Assembly (NCBI GenBank): GCA_017454485.1
Contig: JAFTCX010000089.1
Location: 1-37,627 of the forward strand
DNA: 37,627 nucleotides
Reading direction: 5' to 3'
Origin: Clostridia bacterium
GTDB lineage: Bacteria > Bacillota > Clostridia > Oscillospirales > Acutalibacteraceae
Part shown: positions 5,482 through 37,627 of the stretch, one piece after another
Position numbering within the stretch: the first letter of the stretch is position 1
How the letters are laid out: the number at the start of each line of letters is the position of its first letter
Translations under genes and position numbers: made by a program
Notes under the pieces: generated by a model
Told to the model about the DNA's origin: nothing
Database searches by the model: none
Seen by the model: the letters and a program-made list of their open reading frames with translations, nothing else

Positions 5482-5507
5482 ACAAAATCGGCTTTGCGGT
5501 TTATAAT
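5479..5507 (+). promoter_or_regulatory. Promoter of the antitoxin RNA
   Basis: Perfect consensus: TTGACA (5479-5484), 17-base spacer, TATAAT (5502-5507). Transcription should start near 5514. No plausible protein gene follows on this strand before a strong terminator, which fits a small RNA gene. Confidence 0.85.
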
Positions 5508-5513
5508 ATAAAT

Positions 5514-5601
5514 GCAAAGAGTGATCCGGTTTTACGGTTCGCCCTTAAGTGTTGAAAGAAATAATCGCCACTCTCAGGCTTTGGGGCGGTTATTTCTTTT
5601 T
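5514..5601 (+). ncRNA. Predicted antisense RNA antitoxin (type I TA)
   Basis: The interval runs from the predicted start of the promoter at 5479-5507 to the terminator at 5555-5601 and gives an RNA of about 88 nt. It is convergent with the holin-like toxin gene. It is complementary to that gene's last three codons, stop codon and 3' untranslated region. This is the geometry of Bacillus TxpA/RatA-type loci, where the antisense RNA pairs with the 3' end of the toxin mRNA and blocks or destabilises it. The boundaries are inferred from promoter and terminator sequences. Confidence 0.65.
5555..5601 (+). terminator. Terminator of the antitoxin RNA, shared with the toxin gene
   Basis: The 15-base arm 5555-5569 pairs with 5585-5599 (one G-T wobble), with a 15-base loop. 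TTTTTATTAT lies at the plus-strand exit. On the minus strand the same stem follows the toxin stop codon and is followed by TTTCTTTC-like sequence, so it may act in both directions, but better for the RNA. Confidence 0.8.
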
Positions 5602-5697
5602 ATTATGCGCATAGGTCAAAGCTTGCAAAACAAGCCCGACGATGCCGATGATCACCAGTGTAAATGTAAACAGTTCATCGTACGTCACATGCTGCAT
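5590..5697 (-). CDS. Small holin-like toxin (type I toxin-antitoxin)
   Basis: A 35-residue protein starting MQHVTYDELFTFTLVIIG. It has one hydrophobic helix (about residues 9-27) and ends in the basic tail HNKKK. This is the pattern of the 'putative holin-like toxin' family found in Firmicutes (YxELF...VIIGIVGLV...KKK), whose members are small membrane toxins controlled by antisense RNA. The ATG at 5697 has an excellent GGAGGG site (5711-5706) eight bases upstream. It has its own promoter (5838-5810) and a leader of about 105 nt with a possible ribosome-site switch. An in-frame extension to 5781 is rejected because it would run through that structured leader. Confidence 0.8.
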   Translation of the reverse strand: MQHVTYDELFTFTLVIIGIVGLVLQALTYAHNKKK

Positions 5698-5703
5698 AAA
5701 GGC

Positions 5704-5746
5704 ATCCCTCCTTCGAACAGGCGTCGGAGGGATCGGAAATCCCTCC
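5704..5746 (-). promoter_or_regulatory. Shine-Dalgarno sequestration switch in the toxin mRNA leader
   Basis: In the mRNA direction, the octamer GGAGGGAT occurs at 5746-5739. Its exact complement ATCCCTCC occurs at 5733-5726, and GGAGGGAT again at 5711-5704, where it is the true ribosome site. The central anti-SD can therefore pair either with the upstream decoy (site open) or with the real site (site closed). Processing or truncation of the 5' end would switch between the states. The pairing is visible; its use is inference. Confidence 0.6.
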
Positions 5747-5809
5747 GCAAAGAGGGCAAACCGTCCACCGTGATGGGTCACTCAATGGGTATCTTTCAAT
5801 ACCGCAACG

Positions 5810-5838
5810 ATCATACCAAAACCAACAGGGTTTGTCAA
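5810..5838 (-). promoter_or_regulatory. Promoter of the toxin gene
   Basis: On the minus strand, TTGACA (5838-5833), a 17-base spacer and TATGAT (5815-5810). The predicted start is near 5803, giving a toxin mRNA of about 240 nt with a long leader. Confidence 0.8.
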
Positions 5839-5870
5839 GTTTTAAGTTTGAAACAACGAAGCCGATGAAC

Positions 5871-5908
5871 GAAGAAAAACGCCCCGCCGTGGAGTTTCAC
5901 GGCGAGGC
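5871..5908 (-). terminator. Terminator of the ribbon-helix-helix gene
   Basis: On the minus strand GCCTCGCCGTG pairs with CACGGCGGGGC around a short loop and is followed by GTTTTTCTTC. It lies six bases after the stop codon of the RHH gene and separates it from the toxin promoter. Confidence 0.85.
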
Positions 5909-5913
5909 TACTG

Positions 5914-6066
5914 TTATTGTTGATTCTTTTGTTTTGCAAGATGTTCTTTCAGCACTTTGTTGATATATTGAGAAAAAGAGCGGTCATCCTGCTCGGCTAA
6001 AATGCGAAGCTGGGCGACAACATCTTCGTCCAGCGTGATGCTGACTTTTTCTTTGAGCGGTTTCAT
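5914..6066 (-). CDS. Ribbon-helix-helix (CopG/Arc-type) regulator
   Basis: A 50-residue protein beginning MKPLKEKVSITLDEDVVAQL and ending KEHLAKQKNQQ. The layout is that of a ribbon-helix-helix DNA-binding protein: a short beta strand (KVSITLD), a helix (EDVVAQLRILAEQDD), the turn 'RSFSQYINKVL', and a second helix. Such dimers bind palindromic operators and often repress neighbouring genes. I chose the start at 6066 because AAGGAAG is seven bases upstream; an ATG two codons earlier is too close to that site. It is divergent from the CHAP protein gene, with an inverted repeat in the shared region. It could be an orphan antitoxin, but no partner toxin is adjacent in the same operon. Confidence 0.8.
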   Translation of the reverse strand: MKPLKEKVSITLDEDVVAQLRILAEQDDRSFSQYINKVLKEHLAKQKNQQ

Positions 6067-6093
6067 GAGCATTCTTCCTTTTTTATTTAGAGT

Positions 6094-6121
6094 AGCATAT
6101 TTCCATCAAAAGTATTGACAA
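6094..6121 (-). promoter_or_regulatory. Probable promoter of the RHH gene
   Basis: Minus strand TTGTCA (6121-6116), 16-base spacer, TATGCT (6099-6094). Its -35 overlaps the plus-strand -35 of the CHAP gene, so the two divergent promoters share one box and should be co-regulated. Confidence 0.5.
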
Positions 6122-6143
6122 TTCCTACAAAGTAGGATAAAAT
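6115..6143 (+). promoter_or_regulatory. CHAP-gene promoter with a palindromic operator in the spacer
   Basis: TTGACA (6115-6120), 17-base spacer, TAAAAT (6138-6143). The spacer holds the perfect inverted repeat TCCTAC-AAA-GTAGGA (6123-6137), with further GTAG/CTAC half-sites at 6091-6095 and 6143-6149. This is an ideal place for repression by the divergently encoded RHH protein, which is inference. Confidence 0.75.
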
Positions 6144-6173
6144 ACTACTGAATAAATATAGGGAGGATGTACT

Positions 6174-8744
6174 ATGAAAAAGGCAAAACAAATCTTGTCC
6201 GTTTTATTGGCTGTGGTGATGGCGGTGTGCGCTGTGCCGGTGATGCAGGCGAGTGCGACTTCAAAAACCGTTAGCGAAGCGATGAGCTGGTGTGATTCTA
6301 AAGTAGGAAGCAAAGTAGGTACCGGCCAGTGCGTTGCACTGATTCAAGCGTATTACAGCTATCTCGGCGTTTCCGGCGGTGGCGGTAATGCTAAAGATTA
6401 TGCAACAAACACCCTTCCAAGCGGGTTTTCGCGTGTCAAAGGCGGCGTTCCTCAAACAGGCGATATTCTCGTTTACACCGGTGCTAAATACGGTCATGTT
6501 GCAATTTATGCAGGTGGCACGACGTCTTATCATCAAAATATGGCCGGGTTGTATGTAGAAAAGAAAACTAACTGGGAGTATAATAAAAGCTGGTACAGTA
6601 GTGCTGAAGGCGGAACAAAATCCTATTGGGGTTATATTCGTCCATATTTCAAGAATATTCCGGTCAGCGGTGATGCACCGACGATCATTTATACTTATAT
6701 AGGCCATTTAACAGATTCAACATTCCGTCCTTGCTGCGAAGTCGGAACAGATGTGCCGATTGATTATGTCAAAGTTGCTGTGGGTGGATATAGTGGCGAT
6801 TGGGTTTGGTATGATACCGTTAATAACGGTTCAAATACCTTCTTTAATGATATCCCTTACAGTGATCACCCGGCCGGAGAAAATTGTTTCTATTGTGATT
6901 TCTATGTGTATGGAACAAACGGAACTCGCTCTTCACAAAGAATCATGTATTATCGATCTGCAAGTTTCGATTGGAACATTGAAGCAAATATTACGGATGG
7001 TTCAACCTTTGATGCAACTGTGACTGATATAGTTGAAATTTCCGGTTGGGCTTATTGCGCCAACAGGTCAGACGCTTGGGTATACTGGAGTGTTGATGAT
7101 CAAGAAGCGTATGCCTGTGATAAGTATTCCCGTACCGATGTTTCGACCGCAAAAGGCTGTCGAGAGGATTGCGGTTTTACAGGGTATATACCCATCCGTT
7201 CTCTTTCAGAAGGTCGCCATAAGCTGAGCATTTGGTGCTCGAGTGAAACCGGCAGCGCCGATATGTCAGTGAGCTATTTCACAGTATATAAACCGTATTA
7301 TTCCCTTGACCTCAATGGTTGGCTCGACGGCGCGTTAAATGGCGGTTTAGCAAGTTACGGTACTGCTGATATTTACATCAACGGACAATTGGTTGCAGAT
7401 GATGTGACCGATTACTATCAGGGTCATGTAAAGGGAACGTCTTTTGAAATCAAAGATATTAAAGCAAGAACCGGTTATCAATACAACGGCGTTTATTCAG
7501 GAAGCATATCGGGAACCATAAACGGGAACGTGGAAACCGTTTTAAATTTCTCGTCAAGGGCAACGTCCATTTTCTTTGATGAAAACCATGATTCTATCAA
7601 TCCCAATTTGTTTGCAATCAACAATGGGGGAAAAACCGAAAACGGATTGACATACGCATACGATGGAAATACAGATGTTATAACTTTAAACGGAAGAATG
7701 ACTGAAAGTGTTGATTTGTTCGAATATCCGTTCTCAGCAACTGCCGGTGAAGTATATAAACTTACCGCAACGAAACTTTCCGGAAGCGTTTCGAATGCAT
7801 TTTTTGTCGTAGAGCTTTTAGAGAATGATGGAACAAGATTAAATTTTGACATTGCAAATTCATCAACACTTACCCAAACAATCAATGCAGCGCAAGCACA
7901 GAAAGTTAACCGCGTTCGCGTTTGGGTGTGGCATAATGGCAACGGCGTTTTTACGAATGCAAAATATAAAGTCAAACTTGAAAAAGTTTCTTCTGCCGGC
8001 ACTGTTGGAACCGAATATTCGCATACAGGTATTGTCAAATTGTACAATCATACTTATAACTGGCTTCCGACCACTGCAAGAGAAGGCTATGAGTTTGACG
8101 GTTGGTATACAGCTGCAAGCGGAGGAACGAAAATAACCACTACGTCAAAGTGTACAAGTGTAGGTCAACAAATACTGTATGCACATTGGAAAGCACATGT
8201 TTGGAATGCCGGAACGATTACAAAAGCTGCAACTTGTATCACAACCGGCACAAAACAGTTTACATGCACAAACTGTAATGCCACCAAAACCGAAACCGTC
8301 CCCATCAATACATCCAACCATGTGAACACGGAAGAGATTTCCGCAACGCTTTCCACCTGCACGGTTAAGGGCTACACCGCCGGTGTGTACTGCAACGACT
8401 GTAAAAAGTATGTCAGCGGCCATGCAGAGCAGCCGCTTGCACCCCATCAGACCACCCTCGTCAATGCAAAAGATGCGACTTATGACGCCGAAGGTTACAC
8501 CGGCGATACCTATTGCACAGTCTGCAAGCAAACGCTCACCAAAGGCGACGTGATTCCGAAGCTGACCAAGCCGGACGAACCGACGAATCCAACCAATCCC
8601 ACAAATCCGACACAGCCGACGAATCCGACGCAACCGCAGCCCTCCGGTTCCTGCCGTTATTGTGGCGGCACCCATACCGGCTTCCCCGGCGTGCTCATCG
8701 GCTTCTTCCACAGCATCCTCGCGCTGTTCGGACTGCGAAAATGA
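6174..8744 (+). CDS. Large secreted CHAP-domain cell-wall hydrolase/surface protein
   Basis: An 856-residue exported protein. It has a signal peptide (about 1-28, ending QASA), then a CHAP amidase/endopeptidase domain (about 33-160) with Cys53 in 'GTGQCVAL' and His108 in 'KYGHVAIY', the usual catalytic pair for peptidoglycan cleavage. The middle contains beta-rich repeats I cannot name. An InlB/Flg_new-type B-repeat ('EGYEFDGWYTAASGGTK...LYAHW') starts near residue 630. CxxC modules (CTNCNATK, CNDCKKY, CTVCKQT), a Pro/Thr/Asn linker and the tail CRYCGGTHTGFPG...GFFHSILALFG follow. This tail recurs on many Ruminococcaceae surface proteins and may be an attachment signal. The gene body is AT-rich until about 8.3 kb, where the CxxC and tail region becomes GC-richer, suggesting a mosaic. 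Confidence 0.85.
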   Translation: MKKAKQILSVLLAVVMAVCAVPVMQASATSKTVSEAMSWCDSKVGSKVGTGQCVALIQAYYSYLGVSGGGGNAKDYATNTLPSGFSRVKGGVPQTGDILVYTGAKYGHVAIYAGGTTSYHQNMAGLYVEKKTNWEYNKSWYSSAEGGTKSYWGYIRPYFKNIPVSGDAPTIIYTYIGHLTDSTFRPCCEVGTDVPIDYVKVAVGGYSGDWVWYDTVNNGSNTFFNDIPYSDHPAGENCFYCDFYVYGTNGTRSSQRIMYYRSASFDWNIEANITDGSTFDATVTDIVEISGWAYCANRSDAWVYWSVDDQEAYACDKYSRTDVSTAKGCREDCGFTGYIPIRSLSEGRHKLSIWCSSETGSADMSVSYFTVYKPYYSLDLNGWLDGALNGGLASYGTADIYINGQLVADDVTDYYQGHVKGTSFEIKDIKARTGYQYNGVYSGSISGTINGNVETVLNFSSRATSIFFDENHDSINPNLFAINNGGKTENGLTYAYDGNTDVITLNGRMTESVDLFEYPFSATAGEVYKLTATKLSGSVSNAFFVVELLENDGTRLNFDIANSSTLTQTINAAQAQKVNRVRVWVWHNGNGVFTNAKYKVKLEKVSSAGTVGTEYSHTGIVKLYNHTYNWLPTTAREGYEFDGWYTAASGGTKITTTSKCTSVGQQILYAHWKAHVWNAGTITKAATCITTGTKQFTCTNCNATKTETVPINTSNHVNTEEISATLSTCTVKGYTAGVYCNDCKKYVSGHAEQPLAPHQTTLVNAKDATYDAEGYTGDTYCTVCKQTLTKGDVIPKLTKPDEPTNPTNPTNPTQPTNPTQPQPSGSCRYCGGTHTGFPGVLIGFFHSILALFGLRK

Positions 8745-9006: not shown

Positions 9007-10533
9007 ATGAAAAACCCGATCAAATTCTTCTTCTCCCGAGAAGAGAGCGATACAAAGGTCGCGAACAACCGGCTGCTGTCTTATGCGGCCGGACTTGCGG
9101 GGCAAAACATGAACTACGGCTTTGTGTCGAACCGCCTGTTTGTGTTTTTGAATACCGTTTTGAAAATCGATTCGCGCAAAACCGGCTTTATCACCGGCTT
9201 TTCCACCCTGTGGGACGCGCTGAACGACCCGATCATCGGCACGCTTGTTGACACGCGTAAGTTCAAACCCGGCCGTAAGCTGCGCCCGTTTTTGCTGTAT
9301 TTGCCGCCGATCATCGGGGTGCTGACGGCGCTGATGTTCTTCGACTTCGGCTTTTCCGAAGGGCAGACCGTGGCGTTCATCATCGTTGTGTATCTGCTGT
9401 ATGATATCGTGTATTCCTATCAGGATGTTGCGCTGTGGGGGATGCTGCCGCTTTCCAGCGCAAGCTCCGATGAGCGCGGGCGTGTGTCGCAGTGGGCGAC
9501 GATCGGCGCCGGCGCAGGCTCCACGGTTGCCGGATTCTTTCCGCAAATTCGCCAAAGCATTGTCGATCTCGGCATCGCAAACGAAAAAACGGCCTATTTT
9601 ATCGGCGCGGTGGCGTTCGGCTTCGGCGGCATGCTTGTTTCCATGCTCGCCTACCGTATGCGTGAAAAGGTGACGTATGCGCAACCCGAGGAGAAAAACG
9701 GCGTTTTGAAAAATCTTGCCGCGTTGCGGCATAACCGCACGCTGATCATCATTTGCCTTGCGCGTTTTCTCGCGTGCTTTTCGCTGACGCTGCCGTGGGA
9801 GTATTTTTTTGAAACGCAGGGCATGACCTACCGCGTGTTCGGCACAGAGCTTTCCGGTGCTACGGTGCAGCTCATGTATTCCATCCTGCCTGGCATCCCC
9901 GGTGCGTTTGCGATGTTCTTTTCCGCAAAAATTGCGCAGAAGATCGGCGGGATGAAGCGCATCCTTGTGGTGGCGGAGGTGCTGTCCGTGAGCATCCGCG
10001 CGCTTTGCTTCTTGATCGGCAGCAACGAACGCTTTTTGCATTTCGGCACCCTTGTGCTCATCATGGCGCTTGTGTCGATCATCAATATCCCGACGAATAT
10101 GAAGGACATTGCGCACCGTGCGCTGATTTCGGACTCCATTGACGAGGTGGAGCTGAAAACCGGCGAACGCACCGAGGGCATCTCCTATTCGATGCAGAAC
10201 TTCGTCTCGAAGCTCACCGCTGCGGCTGCTAAGTTCATTCAGGGCTATCTGCTGCGCTGGCTCGGCTTCAACGAAAAGATCACCGACGCGGCCGGCCATG
10301 TGCTTGAGGGCACTGCGGCCATCCGCGCGCACGACGCGAGCACACGCTTTGTGCGTTTTCGCTGGCATCAGTTTATGCTCGGCCCGGCGATCGGCTCGGC
10401 GCTGTATCTGATCGTGATTTTGTTTTTGAAGGACGACCGCGCCCACACGAAGGAAGTGGAGCGTTTGCTGCGCGAAAAACGCGCACAGATGGAGGCGCAG
10501 GCAAGCGAAGCGCAACCGGTGGAGGTTGGATGA
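9007..10533 (+). CDS. GPH-family (MFS) sugar:cation symporter
   Basis: A 508-residue polytopic protein with about 12 membrane segments. 'FSTLWDALNDPIIGTLVDTRKFKPGRKLRPFLL' in the first cytoplasmic loop is the glycoside-pentoside-hexuronide:cation symporter signature (D-x-x-x-D-P-x-x-G...D). 'YSYQDVALWGMLPLSSASSDERGRVSQW' is also typical of the family. It probably imports an oligosaccharide or glycoside with Na+ or H+; the substrate cannot be read from sequence. AGGAGG lies directly upstream of the ATG. Its stop codon overlaps a possible start at 10530 of the next, AT-rich gene. Confidence 0.88.
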   Translation: MKNPIKFFFSREESDTKVANNRLLSYAAGLAGQNMNYGFVSNRLFVFLNTVLKIDSRKTGFITGFSTLWDALNDPIIGTLVDTRKFKPGRKLRPFLLYLPPIIGVLTALMFFDFGFSEGQTVAFIIVVYLLYDIVYSYQDVALWGMLPLSSASSDERGRVSQWATIGAGAGSTVAGFFPQIRQSIVDLGIANEKTAYFIGAVAFGFGGMLVSMLAYRMREKVTYAQPEEKNGVLKNLAALRHNRTLIIICLARFLACFSLTLPWEYFFETQGMTYRVFGTELSGATVQLMYSILPGIPGAFAMFFSAKIAQKIGGMKRILVVAEVLSVSIRALCFLIGSNERFLHFGTLVLIMALVSIINIPTNMKDIAHRALISDSIDEVELKTGERTEGISYSMQNFVSKLTAAAAKFIQGYLLRWLGFNEKITDAAGHVLEGTAAIRAHDASTRFVRFRWHQFMLGPAIGSALYLIVILFLKDDRAHTKEVERLLREKRAQMEAQASEAQPVEVG

Positions 10534-10565
10534 ACGTACTATATAGGCACAAGACAGGTGGATGT

Positions 10566-12464
10566 ATGAAAAAACTACGCTTTCAATGGATTAAGTATTA
10601 TGATGTTTTAGCAGTTGCTTTTTGTATTGCGGTATTTATGTTCTTTTTTATCAGAATTCGATATGGTGTGAACCGAGTGGATGAGAGCTTCTATTTAGCA
10701 ATTGCTCAAAGATTTGCCAAGGGTGATCGGCCCCTGGTGGATGAATGGCAATTGTCTCAGCTTTCACACTTGTTCTTGATCCCTTTTTACTGGGCTTTTA
10801 CTGCAATAACCGGGGGCATCACCGGCATCATTCTATTTATGCGGCAGATGTTTTTAGCTTTCAACCTTGGTTTTTATTGGATTCTTTATATGAAGCTAAG
10901 AGGTTATGGCATTTGGGGCTTTTTTGCTACTGCAGTTTTTAGTTGTTATGTTCCTTGGGCGATGTTTACGTTGAACTACTATTCAGTTTCGCCCCGGTTG
11001 TTATTGCTGTTATGCTTATTGCTTTTTTGGAGAAAGGGAGAACTTGGTAAAGGAAGACTTCTAATTGGGGGTGCCATTTTCTCGGTCATAGTACTGATAG
11101 AGCCACCATTTGCTGTTCTATATGTGCTTTTTAGTGCTTCTGTTTTTATTCTTGCGTTTTTAAAAAAAAGAAAGCTATGTAAAAAGACCGCTTATGATTT
11201 TTTCCTGAATTATAAAACATGGCTTTATATTACGTTGGCTATATTAGGCTGCGCTTTCATCTTTTTATCCTTTTTGAGCTGGAAGAGTGGGTTTAACAAC
11301 ATTATTGCGTCCATACCTGAGCTTCTAGCAGATTCGGAATATGATTTTTCAACAGGTGGAAATGTTAAATCTTTTCTAATTTCTAAGTTTTCTACAGTTG
11401 CTGATTATTTTGGTGGAGTGAATCTCGCTTTGTCGGTTTTGCTTTGTGTTATCACATTTTGGAGCACAAAAAAGCAAAAAAAAACAAATGGAAAGCTTTG
11501 GATTTTTCTGTTGTCCAATTTATTAGTGCTCTCATTCTGCCTGTTCCCGATTTATTCTCAGCTAAGATACAAGACCAATATTTTTGAACATTGGTATTAT
11601 TATGTGCTGACGCCGGTCCCTCTGTGTTCATTTGGTTTTATAAATTATTGTTTATGTGAAAAGAAAGATTCAAAACTGTTTATGATTTGGATTCTCAGTG
11701 TGGTTTCTTCGACCTTGATGGATTCATTTTCCGATGTGTGCTTTGGAGCTTGTTTGAGTATAGCTGCTGTACCGGGATTCCTTTGTTTTGGAACAATCGT
11801 AAATGAGTTTTTTGAACAAGAAAAGCTACAGAGAAACAAAAAAAGCAGAAAAGCTTATGCGCTGAAAACTTTGAAAGCCAAGAGAATTCTTTTGATTGCT
11901 TCATTGACGGCGTTTGCTGTGTTTATAGGCTGGGAAGGTGTGAATATTTACGCAGAAGGGACATTTCTACTGACGGAAGGTGAGACTGTGGCTGAAAACA
12001 ATATGGTGAAAATAGAACAAGGAGTATACGAGGGCATCTATACAACATCAACAATTGCAAAAGAATATAATGACTTGCTGGAAGATTTGGATGTGATTAA
12101 AGCGGAAAGCCGTGGACCTGTATATCTGGAAAATCCCTTTCCTCTGGCAGAGCTATATTTGGAGTTGCCGTCTTCTAACTGTTCATCATGGAATTCTGTG
12201 GGAACACGAGATCGACAAATTCGTTATTTTCAAATTCATCCGGAAAAGACACCAGATGTTATTTACTATGTGAAGCGTGATTTCTTCTTTGGACAGACTG
12301 CAACGGAAAAAGAAATGCAGCTGTTCGAAACATATGCAAAGCATCTTTGTGACGGAACAATAAAACGAGGGAAGAACGGCATTATCGTGAATGTTGAAAA
12401 ATGGAAAAATCCGGGTGATCCGGCTCTGATGAACTGGGTGCTGGAACATAAAAATGAGTTTTAG
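10566..12464 (+). CDS. Polytopic membrane protein, putative GT-C-type glycosyltransferase
   Basis: A 632-residue protein with roughly 11-13 hydrophobic segments between residues 12 and 470 and a soluble C-terminal region of about 160 residues. The first external loop carries acidic motifs (VDESFY at 38-43, VDEW at 58-61), as in GT-C enzymes that use polyprenyl-phosphate sugars. I do not recognise a specific family. It is AT-rich compared with its left neighbour and is followed after 11 bases by a GT2 enzyme of the kind that makes such lipid-linked sugars. An upstream ATG at 10530, overlapping the transporter stop, would add 12 residues and has a GGAGG site. I prefer 10566 because it starts MKKLRF right before the first helix. 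Confidence 0.6.
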   Translation: MKKLRFQWIKYYDVLAVAFCIAVFMFFFIRIRYGVNRVDESFYLAIAQRFAKGDRPLVDEWQLSQLSHLFLIPFYWAFTAITGGITGIILFMRQMFLAFNLGFYWILYMKLRGYGIWGFFATAVFSCYVPWAMFTLNYYSVSPRLLLLLCLLLFWRKGELGKGRLLIGGAIFSVIVLIEPPFAVLYVLFSASVFILAFLKKRKLCKKTAYDFFLNYKTWLYITLAILGCAFIFLSFLSWKSGFNNIIASIPELLADSEYDFSTGGNVKSFLISKFSTVADYFGGVNLALSVLLCVITFWSTKKQKKTNGKLWIFLLSNLLVLSFCLFPIYSQLRYKTNIFEHWYYYVLTPVPLCSFGFINYCLCEKKDSKLFMIWILSVVSSTLMDSFSDVCFGACLSIAAVPGFLCFGTIVNEFFEQEKLQRNKKSRKAYALKTLKAKRILLIASLTAFAVFIGWEGVNIYAEGTFLLTEGETVAENNMVKIEQGVYEGIYTTSTIAKEYNDLLEDLDVIKAESRGPVYLENPFPLAELYLELPSSNCSSWNSVGTRDRQIRYFQIHPEKTPDVIYYVKRDFFFGQTATEKEMQLFETYAKHLCDGTIKRGKNGIIVNVEKWKNPGDPALMNWVLEHKNEF

Positions 12465-12475
12465 GAGAGCAGGGA

Positions 12476-13231
12476 ATGGTTGTCTACTTTGTGATCCCTT
12501 GTTATTATGATGACGATGTTCTGCCATCGACAGGACCTGTCTTCCTATCAAAATTACATACACTTATAGATCAAAGTGTTATAGACGAAGACAGTCGAGT
12601 CATTTTTGTAAACGACGGTTCAACCGACAGAACCTGGGAGCAGATTGAACATTTGCATGAGGACGATCCGCATTGTATCGGTATTAATCTTTCACAAAAT
12701 GTTGGCGAGCAGGACGCAACGCTTGCAGGATTGTTTTATGCAAACGTGTATGCTGATTGCTGTATCACGATGGATAGCGATTTGCAGGATGATATTAATA
12801 TGGTTGATCAAATGATTCACCTCTTTGCACAAGGCAACGAGGTGGTATTTGGAGTTAGAAAATCTAGAAAAAAAGACGTACTTTTTGAGAAAGTTACGTC
12901 CAAACTGTTTTATATTGTGATGCGTATTGCGGAGCCTCGCAGCATTCCAAATCATTCTTCTTTTCGGTTAATGAGTAAACGCACGATTGAATGGCTGCGT
13001 GAATTTTCCGAAATATCATTTTTTTTACCTGTGTTAGTCGCTTCTTTTAACTTGCCGTATTCAATTGTATACTATGATCGTTTGCCGCGTGCTGCTGGGT
13101 TATCAGGATATAATTTCAAAAAAAGGCTGAAATTGGGCACAAACGCATTTCTTTCACATATAGCGTTGAGACAAGGGCATCCGCGCAAAAAAGCTGCGTC
13201 AAACGTGAAAATCCAGCAGATACTTGATTAA
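12476..13231 (+). CDS. GT2 glycosyltransferase, DPM1/GtrB-like
   Basis: A 251-residue GT-A fold enzyme. 'VIPCYYDDDVLP' starts the nucleotide-binding domain, 'FVNDGSTDRTW' binds UDP, and 'MDSDLQDD' (100-106) is the metal-binding DxD. 'SSFRLMSKRTIEWL' is typical of polyprenyl-phosphate glycosyltransferases. Family members usually end in two membrane helices and reach about 310 residues. Here the protein stops after the catalytic domain in a basic stretch. AGGAG lies eight bases before the ATG. Its likely product, a lipid-linked sugar, would feed the GT-C-like protein upstream. Its stop codon overlaps that of the convergent isomerase gene. Confidence 0.85.
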   Translation: MVVYFVIPCYYDDDVLPSTGPVFLSKLHTLIDQSVIDEDSRVIFVNDGSTDRTWEQIEHLHEDDPHCIGINLSQNVGEQDATLAGLFYANVYADCCITMDSDLQDDINMVDQMIHLFAQGNEVVFGVRKSRKKDVLFEKVTSKLFYIVMRIAEPRSIPNHSSFRLMSKRTIEWLREFSEISFFLPVLVASFNLPYSIVYYDRLPRAAGLSGYNFKKRLKLGTNAFLSHIALRQGHPRKKAASNVKIQQILD

Positions 13232-13626
13232 CAAACAGTTTTTAAATATTCTTCATAGTCAGTAATGATATCTGCTTTAGAGTAAGGTTGATCTGCTAAC
13301 ACTGTCAGAGCGCAGTCGGATGTAAAGGTATGTAGTTTTCGCCATGTCCGCTTGGGGATGAAAACGGCATCCATTGTTTTTTTTAAAGAAATGCTTGTTT
13401 GTGAATGTCCATCCATAAGATCAATTTGACAGCTGCCGGCGTTAAGAATCAATATTTCATTACTGTTCATGGTTGCATGGTTACCACGTACAGCATCATG
13501 TGGAACATGCTGAATAAAAAAGATGCGTTGAACAGAGAAACTGTCGTTATTCTCAAAAACAAAGAGTTCTCCTCTTGCATCACAAAAAGAATCAAAATGA
13601 AAAATCTGATTTTGTTTCAGTATCAT
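13228..13626 (-). CDS. FdtA/QdtA-like sugar 3,4-ketoisomerase (WxcM-like cupin)
   Basis: A 132-residue single-domain cupin. 'QRIFFIQHVPHDAVRGNHA' followed by 'ILILNAGSCQIDLMDG' matches the dTDP-4-keto-6-deoxyglucose 3,4-ketoisomerase family, which makes the 3-keto sugar for transamination to a 3-amino sugar. The usual active-site RGxHAH reads RGNHAT here, so the second His is Thr52. Activity or specificity may therefore differ. I chose the ATG at 13626 because AGGAG is five bases upstream; an in-frame start at 13728 would lie within the aminotransferase gene. It follows the DegT aminotransferase by 10 bases, the classic FdtA-FdtB pairing. The rml genes for the precursor are not in the window. 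Confidence 0.75.
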   Translation of the reverse strand: MILKQNQIFHFDSFCDARGELFVFENNDSFSVQRIFFIQHVPHDAVRGNHATMNSNEILILNAGSCQIDLMDGHSQTSISLKKTMDAVFIPKRTWRKLHTFTSDCALTVLADQPYSKADIITDYEEYLKTVC

Positions 13627-13636
13627 GATGTCTCCT

Positions 13637-14737
13637 TTATGAAAACTGATTGAGTGTTCGTATAATAAAATCTTGCTCATCTTCACGTAATCCGTAAAAG
13701 CTTGGGAGAGAAAGGACAGTTTCTGCAAGTTGCTCTGTAATAGGTAGTGCGCCGCGTTTGATCCTGAGGTTGCGGAGCGCAGAAGTCAGGTGCGGTGGAA
13801 TCGGATAATGGATCGCCGTTTCAATGCCGTTTTCCAGCAGATAAGCAATAAGGTCCTGGCGCCGATTGCAGCGAATGACAAACTGATGCCAAACATTTTC
13901 TGTGCCAAGATATACTTTCGGTAAATCTATCCATTCATTTCGAAGACCAGCGTAGTAACGCTTTGCAATATGATTTTTCTCTGCGGTGTCTTCTTTTAAA
14001 TATTGTAATCGGATACGCAAGAGGGCGGCTTGGAGTTCGTCCAATCTGGAATTAACACCTTGTATAATGTAATCGCCGCAGTTGTTTTCCTTCCCGTAAT
14101 TACGAAAGCAATATGCGTTCTCTGCAAGGCGCGGGTCGTTTGTGACAAGAGCTCCGCCATCTCCAAACGCTCCAAGATTTTTTGTTGGATAAAAAGAGAA
14201 ACAGCCAACATCACCGAACGTCCCGGCGGCTTGCCCTTGAAATTTTGCATCATGAGCCTGAGCGCAGTCCTCGATTAGTCGCAATCCATGCGTTCGGCAG
14301 AGGTTGACGATCTCATGCATTGGCGTCATCAGTCCATAAAGATGTGTTACAAGAACTGCCTTGGTGTGGGAAGTGATGCATGCAGCTATATTGCTTGCGT
14401 TAAGATTGTAGTGTGTCAGATCTGGCTCAGCAAACACCGGGCGAGCACCACAACGTGTGATTGCGAGAACGGTTGCGAAAAATGCATTTCCCTGGACAAT
14501 GACTTCATCGCTCGGACCGATATTCAGCAAATGCAGTGCAACCCATAGCGCATCACTGCCGTTGGCGAGAGAGATGCAGTATTTTGCATCGAGATATGCT
14601 GAAAATTCAGATTCAAATGCTGCAACTTCTGAACCAAGGATATAATTCCCCGAACGAAGAACATGCAACGCTTTCGTTTCATATTCTTCTTTATGCTTCT
14701 CATAAGCACGATCTAACCTGTTTGCCGGAATTTTCAA
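13637..14737 (-). CDS. DegT/DnrJ/EryC1-family sugar aminotransferase
   Basis: A 366-residue PLP enzyme. 'GSEVAAFESEFSAYLDAKYCISLANGSDAL' opens the fold, 'LIEDCAQAH' holds the PLP-contacting Asp, and Lys186 in 'SFYPTKNLGAFGDGG' is the Schiff-base lysine. 'GVNSRLDELQAALL' is typical. Paired with the FdtA-like isomerase it would be an FdtB/QdtB-type enzyme making a dTDP-3-amino-3,6-dideoxyhexose. The start is a TTG at 14737 with AGAGGTG five bases upstream. Only 34 bases without a terminator separate it from the flavodoxin gene, so it may be read from that operon's promoter although its composition is much AT-richer. Confidence 0.88.
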   Translation of the reverse strand: MKIPANRLDRAYEKHKEEYETKALHVLRSGNYILGSEVAAFESEFSAYLDAKYCISLANGSDALWVALHLLNIGPSDEVIVQGNAFFATVLAITRCGARPVFAEPDLTHYNLNASNIAACITSHTKAVLVTHLYGLMTPMHEIVNLCRTHGLRLIEDCAQAHDAKFQGQAAGTFGDVGCFSFYPTKNLGAFGDGGALVTNDPRLAENAYCFRNYGKENNCGDYIIQGVNSRLDELQAALLRIRLQYLKEDTAEKNHIAKRYYAGLRNEWIDLPKVYLGTENVWHQFVIRCNRRQDLIAYLLENGIETAIHYPIPPHLTSALRNLRIKRGALPITEQLAETVLSLPSFYGLREDEQDFIIRTLNQFS

Positions 14738-31633: not shown

Positions 31634-31707
31634 GGTACCCACTGATTCACTTGGATATGCAAACCTTGGCGGTAAATCTTCACGCACCGAGTGAATCAGC
31701 GGGCACC
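31634..31707. repeat. MITE-like or hairpin element with 21-bp inverted ends
   Basis: The left arm 31634-31654 (GGTACCCACTGATTCACTTG...) pairs with the right arm 31687-31707 at 18 of 21 positions; the three differences are all G-T compatible. The loop is 32 bases. The left arm recurs near 35157-35175 (17 of 19 identical), and its core CACTGATTCAC recurs at 37300-37310. It sits just after the luxS stop codon and could also act as a 3'-end hairpin, although no T-tract follows. Confidence 0.65.
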
Positions 31708-32845: not shown

Positions 32846-32976
32846 GCACCGATCCATCCGAGCCTGCAAAGCTAAGCGCAATGCGTATGCGCTGCAGGCC
32901 GCAGCCGAAAATTCACAGAGCAGGTTTTCCCGCTCTCCGGCTGAAGGGTCTGTTCGGAAACGAACCGGCCTTCCGT
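32846..32976 (+). promoter_or_regulatory. Probable Moco/Tuco riboswitch upstream of tupA
   Basis: This 130-base leader has stacked helices. GCCTGC (32862-32867) pairs with GCAGGC (32894-32899) and contains AGCGCA/TGCGCT (32875-32880/32888-32893). CAGCCG (32902-32907) pairs with CGGCTG (32938-32943). GTTCG-GAAA-CGAAC (32952-32965) is a GNRA-capped hairpin. The phrases TCCGAGCC, GGCTGAAGG and GGAAACGAACCGGCC recall the molybdenum/tungsten cofactor RNA motif, which controls Moco, Tuco and Mo/W-transport genes. The gene just downstream is a tungstate-binding protein, which supports the call. A covariance-model search with the Rfam Moco motif would decide. Confidence 0.65.
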
Positions 32977-32998
32977 GTTTGAAAAGGAGTTTTGGATC

Positions 32999-33871
32999 AT
33001 GAAAAAACTTTTGGCAATCCTTCTGGCAGCACTGCTCGTCCTCTCCCTTGCGGCGTGCGGCGGCAACAATGCGCCCGACCCGTCGGCCGCACCTTCTCAA
33101 AGCGACGCGGCAAGCGAGGTCACAAACCCGACCATCCGTCTGTCCACCACAACCAGCGTCAACGATTCCGGCCTGCTGCCGTATCTGCTGCCGGTGTTTG
33201 AAAGCGAGACCGGCTACAAGGTGGAGGTGCAGTCCGCAGGCACCGGCGCGGCGATTCAAAAGGCCATTGACGGCAACGCCGATCTGATCCTTGTGCACGC
33301 CAAGGCGTCCGAAGAGGAGTTCATCAACGGCGGCTACGGCGTGGAGCGCCTGCCCTTCATGTATAACTTCTTCGTCATCGTCGGCCCGAAGGACGATCCG
33401 GCAGGCATCGCCGACTGTGAAGACGCGGCCGCTGCCTTTGCGAAAATTCGCGAGAGCGAAAGCAAGTTCATTTCTCGCGGCGACGAGAGCGGCACCCACA
33501 AGGCCGAGCTGAAGATCTGGGGCGAAGCAGCACCCGACGCGGCGAACGACAGTTGGTATATCAGCGCTGGCCAGGGCATGGGCGCCTGCCTGACGATGGC
33601 AAGTGAGCAGCAGGCCTACTGCCTGACCGATAAGGCGACCTTCCTTTCCATGGAAAAGGATCTGAACCTCGGTCTGCTGCTGGAAAAGGGCGACGATATG
33701 AAGAACACCTATTCGTTGATCGCGGTCAATCCCGAAAAGATCGACGGGCTGAATGTGGAAGGCGCAAAGGCGCTGATCGACTGGATGCTTTCCGATGAAG
33801 CGAGCGAAATGATCGCAAAATACGGGCAGGAACAGTACGGCGTTTCGCTGTTTTCTTTGCTTGAGAAATAA
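32999..33871 (+). CDS. tupA: Tungstate ABC transporter substrate-binding lipoprotein
   Basis: A 290-residue lipoprotein with lipobox LAAC (Cys20). 'RLSTTTSVNDSGLLPYLLPVFESETGYKVEVQSAGTGAA' is the TupA signature; the TTTS (50-53) and the Ser and Gly that follow bind the oxyanion. 'FISRGDESGTHKAELKIW' and 'GQGMGACLTMASEQQAYCLTDKATFL' are also family motifs. It captures tungstate for tungsten-dependent oxidoreductases. I chose the ATG at 32999 because AAGGAG precedes it; an ATG at 32975 would lie at the edge of the riboswitch-like leader. It is followed by tupB after five bases. Confidence 0.9.
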   Translation: MKKLLAILLAALLVLSLAACGGNNAPDPSAAPSQSDAASEVTNPTIRLSTTTSVNDSGLLPYLLPVFESETGYKVEVQSAGTGAAIQKAIDGNADLILVHAKASEEEFINGGYGVERLPFMYNFFVIVGPKDDPAGIADCEDAAAAFAKIRESESKFISRGDESGTHKAELKIWGEAAPDAANDSWYISAGQGMGACLTMASEQQAYCLTDKATFLSMEKDLNLGLLLEKGDDMKNTYSLIAVNPEKIDGLNVEGAKALIDWMLSDEASEMIAKYGQEQYGVSLFSLLEK

Positions 33872-33876
33872 GCGGG

Positions 33877-34563
33877 ATGGACGCGTTCCGGCAGGCGATG
33901 CACCTGCTTTTTACGCTGGACGATGAACTGCTGCAAATTCTCGGTGTGACGATGCGGATGTCCTTTTTCAGCACAACGATCTCGTGTCTGATCGGGCTTC
34001 CGCTCGGCACACTGCTCGGAACCCACAGCTTTCGCGGAAAAGCGTTTTTGAAAAAACTGCTGCATACGCTCATGGGCTTGCCGCCGGTGGTGGCAGGCCT
34101 GCTTGTATATACACTGTTTACCCATTACGGGCCGTTCGGTTCGCTGCATCTGCTGTTTACGGTGCGCGTGATGGTGATTGCGCAGTGTCTGCTGATCACT
34201 CCGGTGGTTACCGGCCTTTGCGCGTCCTATATGGAGCAGTCCGCCGCCGGCATATTGGAAACCGCGCGGGGCATGGGGCTGCCGGCCGGACGAGTGCTGC
34301 TGCTTTGCCTGTCGGAAAGCCGCACCTCTCTGCTTTCCGTGGTGCTGAGCGCCTTCGGACGTTCCATTGCGGAGGTCGGCGCGGTGAGCATCGTCGGCGG
34401 CAACATCCAATGGAAAACGCGCGTGATGACCACGGCGATCATGCTGGAGACCAACAAAGGCAATTTCAGCTTTGCGCTGGCGCTCGGCTGCATTCTGCTG
34501 CTGATCGCGTTTGCTGTCAACATCGCCGCGTCGTGGATTGTGAAGGAGGTGCGCTATGATTGA
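33877..34563 (+). CDS. tupB: Tungstate ABC transporter permease
   Basis: A 228-residue permease with five to six helices. 'MRMSFFSTTISCLIGLPLGTLLG' and 'MGLPPVVAGLLVYTLFTHYGPFG' are typical of TupB, and 'ETARGMGLPAGRVLLLCLSESRTSLLSVVLSAFGRSIAEVGAVSIVGGNI' contains the EAA-type coupling loop and following helix. The start codon at 33877 has a weak ribosome site (GCGGG) and follows tupA by five bases, suggesting coupled translation. It overlaps tupC by eight bases. Confidence 0.9.
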   Translation: MDAFRQAMHLLFTLDDELLQILGVTMRMSFFSTTISCLIGLPLGTLLGTHSFRGKAFLKKLLHTLMGLPPVVAGLLVYTLFTHYGPFGSLHLLFTVRVMVIAQCLLITPVVTGLCASYMEQSAAGILETARGMGLPAGRVLLLCLSESRTSLLSVVLSAFGRSIAEVGAVSIVGGNIQWKTRVMTTAIMLETNKGNFSFALALGCILLLIAFAVNIAASWIVKEVRYD

Positions 34564-35167
34564 ATTGACGAACCTCAAAAAACAATACGGCGCGCGCACG
34601 GTGCTGGATGTGCCGTCTCTTTCCGTGAAAGCAGGCGCGTGTGTGGCGCTTATCGGTGCAAACGGCAGCGGAAAAACCACGCTTTTGCGCATCCTCGCCG
34701 GACAACTGAAGCCGACGGACGGCACCTTTTCCGCACCGCAGCCGGTGCTGTATCTGCCGCAGCGCAGCTATGCGTTTCGCGGCACCGTGCTGCAAAATGT
34801 TTTGATCGGCACAAAGAACAAAAGGGAAGAAGCGCTTTCTCTGCTGGAACGCATGGAGCTGACGCCGCTGCTGCAAAAGAGTGCGCGCTCACTTTCCGGC
34901 GGAGAGCTGCAGCGGCTGGCGTTTTGCCGCCTGATGCTGCGCGAGAGTGCGCTGCTGCTGTTGGATGAGCCGACAAGTGCATGTGACGCGCACGCGGCAG
35001 AGCTGCTGCTGCGGGAGTTGCAGCGCTTCCGTGCGGCGCAGAACTGCTCCGTTTTGCTGAGTACCCACAGCAGCGCCGTTGCCGCGCAGGTTGCCGACCG
35101 GTGTGTGCAGCTGGAAAACGGCAGGATCTCGGCAGACGGAACACCGCAGCAGTTTTGTACCCGTTGA
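34556..35167 (+). CDS. tupC: Tungstate ABC transporter ATP-binding protein
   Basis: A 203-residue ABC ATPase with Walker A 'GANGSGKTT', Q-loop 'VLYLPQRSY', signature 'LSGGELQR', Walker B 'LLLLDEPTSACD' and the H-loop at 'LLSTHSSAV'. It energises TupB. AAGGAGG lies inside the end of tupB. The stop codon is embedded in a dispersed repeat (35157-35175), so the repeat forms the last codons. Confidence 0.9.
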   Translation: MIELTNLKKQYGARTVLDVPSLSVKAGACVALIGANGSGKTTLLRILAGQLKPTDGTFSAPQPVLYLPQRSYAFRGTVLQNVLIGTKNKREEALSLLERMELTPLLQKSARSLSGGELQRLAFCRLMLRESALLLLDEPTSACDAHAAELLLRELQRFRAAQNCSVLLSTHSSAVAAQVADRCVQLENGRISADGTPQQFCTR

Positions 35168-35185
35168 TTCACTTGCATAGAATCA
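35157..35185. repeat. Copy of the GTACCC..TGATTCACTTG repeat at the tupC 3' end
   Basis: GTACCCGTTGATTCACTTG (35157-35175) matches 31635-31653 at 17 of 19 bases. An overlapping inverted repeat TTGATTC (35164-35170)/GAATCAA (35179-35185) can form a hairpin. It marks the left edge of the AT-rich Nmad3 cassette. Confidence 0.7.
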
Positions 35186-35217
35186 AAAAGGAGGCAAATG
35201 CGCAAAAAAAGATTCGC

Positions 35218-35246
35218 TTGCTTTTATTCTTGTTTCGATGTATAGT
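35218..35246 (+). promoter_or_regulatory. Promoter of the Nmad3 cassette
   Basis: TTGCTT (35218-35223), 17-base spacer, TATAGT (35241-35246). The start would be near 35253, leaving a leader of about 70 nt. Confidence 0.55.
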
Positions 35247-35323
35247 TATCCTGTCAGAAAAAACAAACAGAAAGAAGCAAACGAAATCATAAGAAGCCCA
35301 AGCTTCGTTAGGAGCAATCAAAC

Positions 35324-36130
35324 ATGAAAATCATTCTTTCCAGAAAAGGCTTTGATTCAGCAAACGGCGGTATACCCAGTCCGATCATGCCCAACGGAAC
35401 CCTTTTGTCAATGCCAATTCCATCCGATGACAATGTGTGCTATGACGACTTGCTTTATGATGAAATGACTTATTCTGAAATATTAGGCCAGCTTGCTCCT
35501 CGCAAAAGGTTCAGTCAATGTCATGTTGACCCTGATATAAGAGAAAACTGTAGAAAAGAAAGAATACAACAATGGATCCCAGCTTTTGGACAAATAGGAT
35601 CTGCACAAGGTGTTTTGAATTATGCAAATGTCGAAATCGGTGATATTTTTCTTTTCTTCGGCTGGTTTCGAAAAACAGAGTTTTACAACGGACAGTTTCG
35701 TTTTATACGCAAAAACAATGGAGACTTTTATGAGCATTCTGATTTGCACATCATATATGGATATATGCAGATAGGTGAAATTATCACTGACAAAGATCAA
35801 ATTGCAAAATTTACATGGCATCCGCATTCTGGAAATACCCGTTTAGAAAACAAATCAAATACTTTGTACCTGCCCTCGGAAACATTGTCCATTATCCCAG
35901 GCTTTCCCGGTTATGGTACTCTTAATTATCGCACAGATCGTGTGTTAACTATGAAGGGACAGAATCGTGCAACATGGAACACGTTGCCCTTTCTTTTGCC
36001 TGAACATATTTATGGGGAAAGGAAAAATGCTGCCAAGGGAAAAGGGCTATATTACAATGGAATTTGGCAAGAATTGGTGATCTACGAATCAGAAGGACTT
36101 TTAGACTGGGTCAAAAGCATTATTGAGTAA
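35324..36130 (+). CDS. Nmad3-family putative nucleotide modification protein
   Basis: A 268-residue protein beginning MKIILSRKGFDSANGGIPSP. The opening, with 'GTLLSMPIPSDD', 'CHVDPDIR', 'FGQIGSAQGVLNYANVEIGDIFLFFGWFR' and 'WHPHSGN', matches what I know of the nucleotide-modification-associated domain 3 (Nmad3) family. That family was predicted from comparative genomics of base-modification systems; its biochemical role is not established as far as I know. AGGAG is nine bases upstream of the ATG. The gene is AT-rich and starts a three-gene cassette with a Phd/YefM-like protein and a glycosylase-like protein. A repeat of the family at 31634 lies at the left edge. Confidence 0.72.
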   Translation: MKIILSRKGFDSANGGIPSPIMPNGTLLSMPIPSDDNVCYDDLLYDEMTYSEILGQLAPRKRFSQCHVDPDIRENCRKERIQQWIPAFGQIGSAQGVLNYANVEIGDIFLFFGWFRKTEFYNGQFRFIRKNNGDFYEHSDLHIIYGYMQIGEIITDKDQIAKFTWHPHSGNTRLENKSNTLYLPSETLSIIPGFPGYGTLNYRTDRVLTMKGQNRATWNTLPFLLPEHIYGERKNAAKGKGLYYNGIWQELVIYESEGLLDWVKSIIE

Positions 36131-36164
36131 TCCAATAGCCAATCTGTAAAGAAGGTACATTAAG

Positions 36165-36413
36165 ATGATTGATGAAAAAACGATCTTCTCTATGGCACAG
36201 GCAAACCAAGATTTTTCGCAGATTGCTCACGCAGCAGATCAGACCGGCAAATCTATCATTGTTGAAAATGATCAGCCGAAGTATTTGGTTCTAAGTGCAG
36301 AATCCTACAGCTGCGTTCTTGAGTTGACTGAAGATGAAATCATCGATATTGTGGCAAAACGAGTTTTATATCGATATCTACCGGCATTCAAGGCGTTGGC
36401 AAACCAAGAATAA
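36165..36413 (+). CDS. Phd/YefM-like antitoxin or DNA-binding protein
   Basis: An 82-residue protein. 'ANQDFSQIAHAADQTGKSIIVENDQPKYLVLSAESY' is the Phd/YefM DNA-binding fold signature (N-terminal helix, 'I.VENDQPKYLVLS..SY'). Such proteins normally neutralise a Doc or RelE-type toxin and autoregulate. No Doc or RelE gene is adjacent; the neighbours are the Nmad3 protein 34 bases upstream and a glycosylase-like protein 23 bases downstream. It may therefore regulate the cassette or neutralise one of its products. The ribosome site is weak (AAGGT). Confidence 0.75.
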   Translation: MIDEKTIFSMAQANQDFSQIAHAADQTGKSIIVENDQPKYLVLSAESYSCVLELTEDEIIDIVAKRVLYRYLPAFKALANQE

Positions 36414-36436
36414 TGTTTAAGTAAAGGAATAATAAA

Positions 36437-37216
36437 ATGGATCTGAAAAGCATTTATGAGAAGAGTTACAACTTTCTCGTTAGCGAGTCAAAAGACTTCG
36501 TGTCAAAAGAGCAAATTGATGTGTTCATTTCAACGCCGGATAGTTCAGAGTGTCGCGACCTTCATTCGGCATATATCCTTCTGCTTGGCATTCTTCAAGA
36601 CTTTAATATGTATCCAAATGTTATTCAATTTGAAAAGCGAAAAGCGCAAATTCTTCGGATTCTGCACGACGGCGATTTGAAGTATATTTCTTCACTTGAT
36701 GTTGCCGCTCTACTGGCTGAGTTTAAAAACGAGTTTGGCTTTCAAAATGACACATTGTGGCGGAAATACTGTAAGAGCATCATCACAGGTGCACGCTTTA
36801 TGTCTCTTTTTATAGATGACAATGATTTCAATCGTACATTTGACGCTTTCGATAAAAGCGATATGACCCGCGAAGCTTTTGCTTTGTTCCTTTCAAAGAA
36901 GATTTACAATATGGGCTTTGCCGTTGCATGCAACTGGTTGAAAGAGTTAGGTTACTATAAATATGCAAAGCCGGATACGCACATAAAAGATGTGTGTTCG
37001 GCTTTGAACCTGATACAAAACAATGATGATATTTCATGCTTTGAGGCAATTATAAAAGTGGCAAATGCTGCCGAGGTTGACGCATATATAGTTGATAAGG
37101 TTTGGTGGCTGATTTGTTCGGGAAACTTCTATCGTTACAAAATCGTTTTGCCACATCCGAAACAAAGGAAAGAACGGTTTTTAATGTTATGTTCCAAAGA
37201 TGCAGCCAAAGAATAA
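36437..37216 (+). CDS. HhH-GPD DNA glycosylase-like protein
   Basis: A 259-residue, mostly helical protein. The region about 149-205 reads 'LSKKIYNMGFAVACNWLKEL' then 'YAKPDTHIKDVCSAL'. It resembles a helix-hairpin-helix followed by the catalytic-Asp loop (P/VDTHV-type) of HhH-GPD base-excision enzymes, and 'VDAYIVDKVWWLICSGNFY' fits the next helix. The hairpin lacks the Lys of bifunctional glycosylases, and no FeS Cys cluster follows, so if active it would be monofunctional. I am not certain of the family; a purely structural helical protein is the alternative. AAGGA is eight bases before the ATG, and a terminator follows. Confidence 0.55.
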   Translation: MDLKSIYEKSYNFLVSESKDFVSKEQIDVFISTPDSSECRDLHSAYILLLGILQDFNMYPNVIQFEKRKAQILRILHDGDLKYISSLDVAALLAEFKNEFGFQNDTLWRKYCKSIITGARFMSLFIDDNDFNRTFDAFDKSDMTREAFALFLSKKIYNMGFAVACNWLKELGYYKYAKPDTHIKDVCSALNLIQNNDDISCFEAIIKVANAAEVDAYIVDKVWWLICSGNFYRYKIVLPHPKQRKERFLMLCSKDAAKE

Positions 37217-37239
37217 CGTGAACTTCCCTCACGCAAAAA

Positions 37240-37270
37240 CTCCGCCGGATTTCTCCGACGGAGCTTTTTT
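37240..37270 (+). terminator. Terminator of the Nmad3 cassette
   Basis: CTCCGCCGGA (37240-37249) pairs with TCCGACGGAG (37254-37263) with one mismatch, followed by CTTTTTT. Confidence 0.88.
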
Positions 37271-37417
37271 AGATGAACAAATTGATGGTGATGTCCTTCC
37301 ACTGATTCACCCTTCGCTTCGGGTCGCGGGCGCGAAAATACGCTTCCGCGTCCGATTTTGTGAGGGTAAATCCGGCAAAACGGACATATCGTCGGGTGTC
37401 GCTTAACGCGTTGTCCC

Positions 37418-37627
37418 TCAGTTCTTGATCGCAGCCTGGGCAGCAGCCAGACGGGCGATGGGCACGCGGAACGGGGAGCAGGAGACGTAGTCGAGGCCGA
37501 TCTCGTGGCAGAATTCCACGCTGGTCGGGTCGCCGCCGTGCTCGCCGCAGATGCCGCAGTGCATCGTCGGGCGGACAGCCTTGCCGAGTTCGACAGCCAT
37601 CTTCATCAGCTTGCCGACGCCGACCTG
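37418..37627 (-). CDS. ppdK: Pyruvate phosphate dikinase, C-terminal fragment
   Basis: The gene enters from beyond the right edge of the window and only the last 69 codons are visible. '[20 protein letters not shown]' and '[24 protein letters not shown]' are the C-terminal signature of pyruvate phosphate dikinase, including the active-site Cys in CGICGEHGG. The enzyme interconverts pyruvate, ATP and phosphate with PEP, AMP and PPi in glycolysis or gluconeogenesis of anaerobes. It is convergent with the Nmad3 cassette. Confidence 0.93.

Follow-up and report, generated by a model that had tools for sequence, protein, structure and literature searches.

Base excision as a means of bacterial immunity has been described for the Brig proteins. 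According to the published accounts (PMC11078745; PMC13160076, a preprint), Brig1 and Brig3 excise bases and leave abasic sites that block phage replication, and the Brig proteins bear a uracil-glycosylase fold. The preprint also describes the ASCH-like protein BapA, which removes glucose so that Brig3 can act; protection from wild-type T4, whose DNA is glucosylated, requires both proteins (PMC13160076). Here, we analyze a stretch of 37,627 nucleotides from a Clostridia bacterium of the family Acutalibacteraceae (assembly GCA_017454485.1, contig JAFTCX010000089.1)—hereafter the window—which carries near its right end a cassette of three genes encoding an Nmad3 protein, a Phd/YefM-like protein, and a third protein termed P3. 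The cassette looks like an ordinary chance stack of separately acquired genes, among which P3 stands out as a possible HhH-GPD analogue of the Brig enzymes. In the open-licence PMC literature—partly judged by title—no paper linking HhH-GPD with phage defence was found, nor one joining a helix-hairpin-helix DNA glycosylase with anti-phage activity.

The predicted structure of P3 shows an HhH-GPD fold. A first-pass annotation, made from the letters of the window alone, had noted that the third protein resembles base-excision glycosylases; the structure prediction supports this, whereas the corresponding Pfam match (Ogg-HhH) is subthreshold at an E-value of 0.025, with PF22175 scoring best at 14.6 bits against a cut-off of 27. 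The sequence profile of P3 agrees weakly with a glycosylase (N-glycosylases on top, E 0.021). No match to NCBIfam or PADLOC and nothing under E 0.04 in PHROGs was obtained, and the relatives from loci L095, L110, L005, and L133 hit no glycosylase profile at E 0.05. The best structural match is MjOgg (3knt/3fhf), an archaeal-type 8-oxoguanine glycosylase, which shares the overall fold, the helix-hairpin-helix, and the catalytic Asp at an identity of 16–19% in structural alignments. D180 of P3, positioned after the hairpin, lines up with this catalytic Asp of MjOgg and is kept in 14 of 14 aligned sequences. On the contrary, the Schiff-base Lys of MjOgg is replaced by Ala in P3, and the column of this bifunctional (apurinic/apyrimidinic lyase) Lys holds A, P, or V in all 14; hence, P3 can be of the monofunctional type at most. 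A conserved C-terminal motif of the P3 family, VDKxxWLxxSG, further sets it apart from MjOgg. Taken from model and alignment, the fold, the hairpin, and the Asp make P3 a predicted monofunctional HhH-GPD DNA glycosylase.

P3 occurs sparsely. Among 200 genomes of the family, only its own carries it, and in the order it is present in two of 295 genomes, its own included. The gene is absent from 50,697 phage records and present in one plasmid record; in a viral collection, one locus was retrieved by a profile scan and none by a scan with the P3 sequence alone. In total, 23 P3 loci were compared (21 from the genome scan, plasmid L005, and viral contig L133), of which L114 and L115 are partial matches and several end early at contig ends. 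Restriction-type genes adjoin P3 in five of them, two being of modification-dependent types—a count for which no background rate was computed. In L095, the closest relative at 61% identity, a PvuRts1I-like/SRA gene, named a methyl-directed restriction enzyme by PADLOC, lies ∼540 bp upstream. In L096, the genes ahead of P3 encode an McrB-like AAA_5 protein that carries an EVE domain, McrC, and a GIY-YIG protein (UzuA according to PADLOC); genes for a WYL regulator and an ADP-ribosylglycohydrolase come after it. An HsdR-like gene and a KAP NTPase are found upstream in L097, an SNF2 helicase and a type IIG Eco57I-type enzyme in L108, and a ResIII-Eco57I protein in L112; P3 itself is broken into pieces in the latter two. 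This company suggests a role in defence.

Other P3 loci keep different company. In plasmid L005, a UDG-superfamily gene is divergent from P3, and in 12 of the 23 loci, read by eye and with profile scans of a few neighbours, no restriction, macro-domain, or UDG gene was seen; two of these, L104 and L105, bear an apparent HipA/HipB-type pair. Five more loci (L098, L099, L106, L107, and L109) have a macro-domain gene downstream of P3, called by Pfam for L098 and L109 and from sequence for the other three. All five stem from Bacilli-type metagenome-assembled genomes, with an XRE-like regulator in four and resolvase-like genes in some, and the shared block may represent a mobile element in its own right.

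The first-pass annotation had taken the three genes together as a possible nucleic-acid modification or defence system. As it proposed, they run in the same direction, as three plus-strand open reading frames (ORFs) with intergenic gaps of 34 and 23 bp. A recurrent association is not found: in a six-frame profile search over flanks of up to ∼10 kb—several shortened by contig ends—neither Nmad3 nor the Phd protein turned up at any of the 23 P3 loci, and the 23 Nmad3 loci examined likewise lacked both P3 and the Phd protein, a further Nmad3 locus (L177) being negative as well. On these counts, the three genes are no conserved system, and the cassette is an operon-like layout at this place. A defence role is plausible for the genes taken separately, since modification-dependent or other restriction genes adjoin some P3 relatives, and methyltransferases, Nmad2, or restriction genes occur near some relatives of Nmad3.

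The first protein is an Nmad3 member (PF18754) by profile score, at 185.6 bits against a cut-off of 27, as had been proposed. The Nmad names reportedly go back to Iyer et al. 2013, and nothing relevant on Nmad3 was found in the open-licence PMC literature. The DefensePredictor study (PMC13092281) lists NMAD among the legend abbreviations of the tested-systems figure, and its text counts a nucleotide modification associated domain among those awaiting validation. The predicted model points weakly to a PUA-like (EVE/ASCH-like) beta fold: a fold search in viral models gave nothing under E 0.08, with ASCH/EVE names among the weak matches, no EVE/ASCH Pfam match was obtained, and hhalign assigned a probability of 0.1% to an alignment with the EVE stretch of L096. 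Sequence searches with Nmad3 matched no solved structure, no NCBIfam or PADLOC entry, and nothing under E 0.04 in PHROGs, and revealed no link to the one Nmad2 protein compared. Nmad3 is absent from the 50,697 phage records and present in two plasmid records. Some of its relatives lie near methyltransferases, Nmad2, or restriction genes. Unlike in the cassette, Nmad3 stands without P3 in all 24 other loci examined; Nmad2 directly adjoins it in three (L122, L132, and L177).

The closest comparison comes from the genus-mate G601, where a stretch 97% identical to the window comprises Nmad3 and its upstream region and lies, at a distance of 57 bp, beside the same terminator and the right-flank gene ppdK; neither Phd nor P3 is present there. 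Nmad3 alone at the same site speaks for a separate acquisition of the genes. The two Nmad3 genes differ at 31 nucleotides, only two of which fall into the first 530, with nonsynonymous and synonymous divergences (dN and dS) of 0.017 and 0.132. This dN relative to dS, together with the uneven differences, indicates purifying selection and a mosaic history. In the alignment of window positions 35324–36127 with L048, 29 of the 31 differences cluster in the last third, which suggests a recombination point inside the gene.

The second protein had been described as antitoxin-like without a recognised toxin. Its score against the Phd/YefM Pfam model is 17.9 bits, under the cut-off of 29.8; it matches phrog_2194 of PHROGs (E 2.2e-14) and one stray NCBIfam entry (E 0.05), and neither PADLOC nor a scan of the viral collection gave a match. 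Relatives are present in 41 of the 295 genomes of the order, its own included. Among the 19 best loci, 11 have a Doc-like gene—in one case a short fragment—next to the Phd relative; Doc-like genes were called by the Fic motif of Doc, and automatic ORF calling picked the Phd ORF in 15 of these 19 loci. The cassette protein, whose nearest known counterpart is the antitoxin of Phd–Doc, resembles proteins adjoining Doc-like genes and differs in that no Doc-like ORF was seen by eye in the cassette, where P3 takes that position. The lack of a toxin stands, the family assignment stays below its cut-off, and the idea of a toxin–antitoxin-like system is weak, since the Phd relatives go with Doc-like genes and none is present here. 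We infer an orphan antitoxin that has no Doc partner and may regulate or simply ride along.

The cassette is flanked by a tup-like transporter operon on the left and ppdK on the right. Of 33 further genus genomes searched, 19 contributed sequence 3′ of ppdK; in the remaining ones ppdK was not matched, the contig broke off there, or the stretch stayed unread (including L172 of G582). ORFs of at least 70 codons within 2.5 kb of ppdK were compared between these 19 genomes and the window by blastp (E 1e-3), with several contigs ending early and G579 providing 171 bases and no ORF. Nmad3 is common to the window and G601, one gene to G591 and G592 (63%), one short ORF to G574 and G576 (88%), and a terminator-repeat frame to the window, G599, and G601; apart from a weak short match between G588 and G589, no further shared ORF was found within this set. 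Among the occupants, Pfam identifies Mrr_cat in G603, a GmrSD_N gene in G597 that is truncated where the contig stops, and HNH_2 in G589. This supports the site being one of variable turnover within the genus. Several genus genomes are AT-rich across the region, and low GC (guanine plus cytosine content) therefore marks cargo in some of them only.

We give about an even chance to the reading that this turnover site carries separately stacked, AT-rich anti-phage-type genes between the transporter operon and ppdK, with P3 as the glycosylase that excises a modified or foreign base. P3 would flip out and excise such a base from invading DNA, and the resulting abasic sites might block replication as with Brig1 and Brig3; its substrate, activity, and defence role are put forward by analogy. 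Nmad3, as an independent gene, might read or process modified bases, and the Phd protein would be a regulator or passenger. P3 and the Brig glycosylases would have monofunctional base excision in common—predicted in the case of P3—and some P3 relatives adjoin restriction genes. The ADP-ribosylglycohydrolase gene near P3 in L096 has its likeness near Brig1 and Brig3, and the ASCH-like Brig3 partner BapA has a weak candidate match here in Nmad3 beside P3. On the other side, the Brig proteins are of the uracil-glycosylase fold and P3 is modelled as HhH-GPD, and Nmad3 and P3 do not come together again at other loci.

It is rather unlikely that P3 serves as an accessory enzyme of DNA repair, acting for instance on oxidised or alkylated bases, that travels on mobile DNA and merely shares genomic islands with its neighbours. 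The nearest structural and sequence matches of P3, archaeal and bacterial 8-oxoguanine glycosylases, speak for such a role, as do the 12 loci devoid of restriction, macro-domain, or UDG genes; the very patchy distribution, the missing equivalent of the Ogg lysine, and the restriction-type genes beside five relatives, two of them modification-dependent, do not fit it well. Nmad3 and P3 might instead act as a pair, Nmad3 stripping or exposing a modification and P3 excising the base, as BapA and Brig3 do, with HhH-GPD in place of the Brig fold. The operon-like layout with its small gaps, the weak EVE/ASCH-like model of Nmad3, and the requirement for the ASCH-like BapA alongside Brig3 against glucosylated T4 (PMC13160076) would agree with this. 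However, the pairing recurs in none of the 23 loci in either direction, G601 has Nmad3 alone at the same site, and the recurrent neighbour of Nmad3 is Nmad2. This lack of recurrence disfavours the pair, which we regard as improbable. Much the same holds for its further-reaching form, a second and independently evolved base-excision immunity in which an HhH-GPD glycosylase removes hypermodified phage bases after the ASCH/EVE-like Nmad3 has stripped or exposed the modification: an improbable scenario which, if true, would repeat the two-step logic of BapA–Brig3 with another glycosylase fold.

Still less probable is a role of Nmad3 and P3 in equipping host or mobile-element DNA with a modified base, P3 being a base-exchange enzyme. 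Relatives of Nmad3 are indeed found on viral contigs near ParB-methyltransferases (L124 and L131) and near Nmad2 and DUF1643 (L122), yet the cassette holds no recognisable synthesis enzyme, and P3 was found at a single locus of the viral collection and in none of the phage records. It would be most surprising if Phd and P3 formed a toxin–antitoxin-like module with the glycosylase as toxin in place of Doc. P3 starts 23 bp past the Phd gene, where the Doc-like gene starts in many relatives; this antitoxin is present at none of the other 23 P3 loci, though, and we know of no precedent for a Phd-controlled glycosylase toxin of HhH-GPD fold.

The first-pass annotation also assigned one promoter and one terminator to the block and regarded a flanking repeat pair as support for transfer as a unit. 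A promoter scan gave seven promoter-like sites against 5.1 expected, but none precedes the first ATG, and a shared promoter is not confirmed. At about 37234–37270, a hairpin with a T-run behind it is present (−14.6 kcal/mol, z −2.88; three of 200 shuffles fold equally well); a terminator scan, with three sites against 2.8 expected, does not list it, and near-identical copies lie elsewhere in the genus, away from these three genes. The repeat pair TGATTCAC does exist at 35165–35172 and 37303–37310. It is not specific, as TGATTCACY has six copies in the window against 0.44 expected, and the corresponding positions of G601 lack TGATTCAC; both observations rule it out as a transfer boundary and remove its support for transfer as a unit.

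Other boundary elements recur in the genus (Table 1). The core of the 33-bp left motif has a second copy in the own genome, and in L049 (G601 contig 6) the motif is abutted by tnpV (PF14198). It also surrounds other cargo together with the ∼205-bp repeat, for example a HipA-like gene (L049:9027–10166, Pfam subthreshold) that is enclosed, like the cassette, by these two boundary motifs. L049:8654–8995 and window positions 37218–37422 belong to a ∼340-base genus repeat that combines a short ORF, resembling a truncated tnpV start, with a coding-like tail and a terminator; parts of this repeat bracket different cargo. At the left motif, upstream of Nmad3, an ORF of 15 codons (35198–35245) is served by a strong ribosome-binding site and is open in G601 too—possibly a leader or the leftover start of another gene.

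Table 1. Features of the cassette and its flanks, in window coordinates
Feature	Position	Strand	Remarks
Tup-like (tungstate-type) ABC transporter operon, left flank: binding protein, permease, ATPase	32975..35167	+	TupA and TupB models matched under their cut-offs
33-bp left boundary motif	35175..35207	+	Recurs in the genus beside other cargo and tnpV
Nmad3 gene	35324..36130	+	268 amino acids; PF18754
Phd/YefM-like antitoxin gene	36165..36413	+	82 amino acids; toxin gene not adjacent
P3 gene, predicted monofunctional HhH-GPD DNA glycosylase	36437..37216	+	259 amino acids
∼205-bp repeat: terminator-like hairpin and short coding-like stretch	37218..37422	-	At ppdK and other sites of genus genomes
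ppdK (pyruvate phosphate dikinase) 3′ end, convergent with the cassette	37418..37627	-	ORF; full-length homologue in L061

Of the flanking genes, those of the transporter match the TupA and TupB models at scores under their cut-offs, and the gene tail on the right is presumably ppdK. The source assembly consists of 90 contigs and is 87% complete. Another of its contigs (G000:C43, L061) bears a second ppdK end, ∼94% identical to window positions 37224–37627, and ends after an exact 87-base overlap with the window, which looks like mixed strains meeting at a branch point of the assembly. In 1-kb windows, GC amounts to 0.38–0.44 over the cassette and to 0.53–0.60 immediately left of it; the block is thus AT-richer than its left side, as had been proposed, and two other stretches of the window, 5500–8500 and 10500–14500, are equally AT-rich (GC about 0.36–0.45). 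Separately, TGATTCACT occurs at 31643–31698 as an inverted pair ∼40 bases apart.

The comparison within the genus reveals a compact chromosomal site with a turnover of such genes. The weak fold prediction for Nmad3 provides a testable structural link from an Nmad family to readers of modified bases. P3 represents a family with a predicted HhH-GPD fold, without a Pfam model over cut-off and without NCBIfam or PADLOC matches, some members of which lie beside enzymes that attack modified DNA. If P3 excises phage bases, a substrate-specific glycosylase for modified DNA could serve as a tool, and base-excision immunity would have emerged twice, from folds that are not related.

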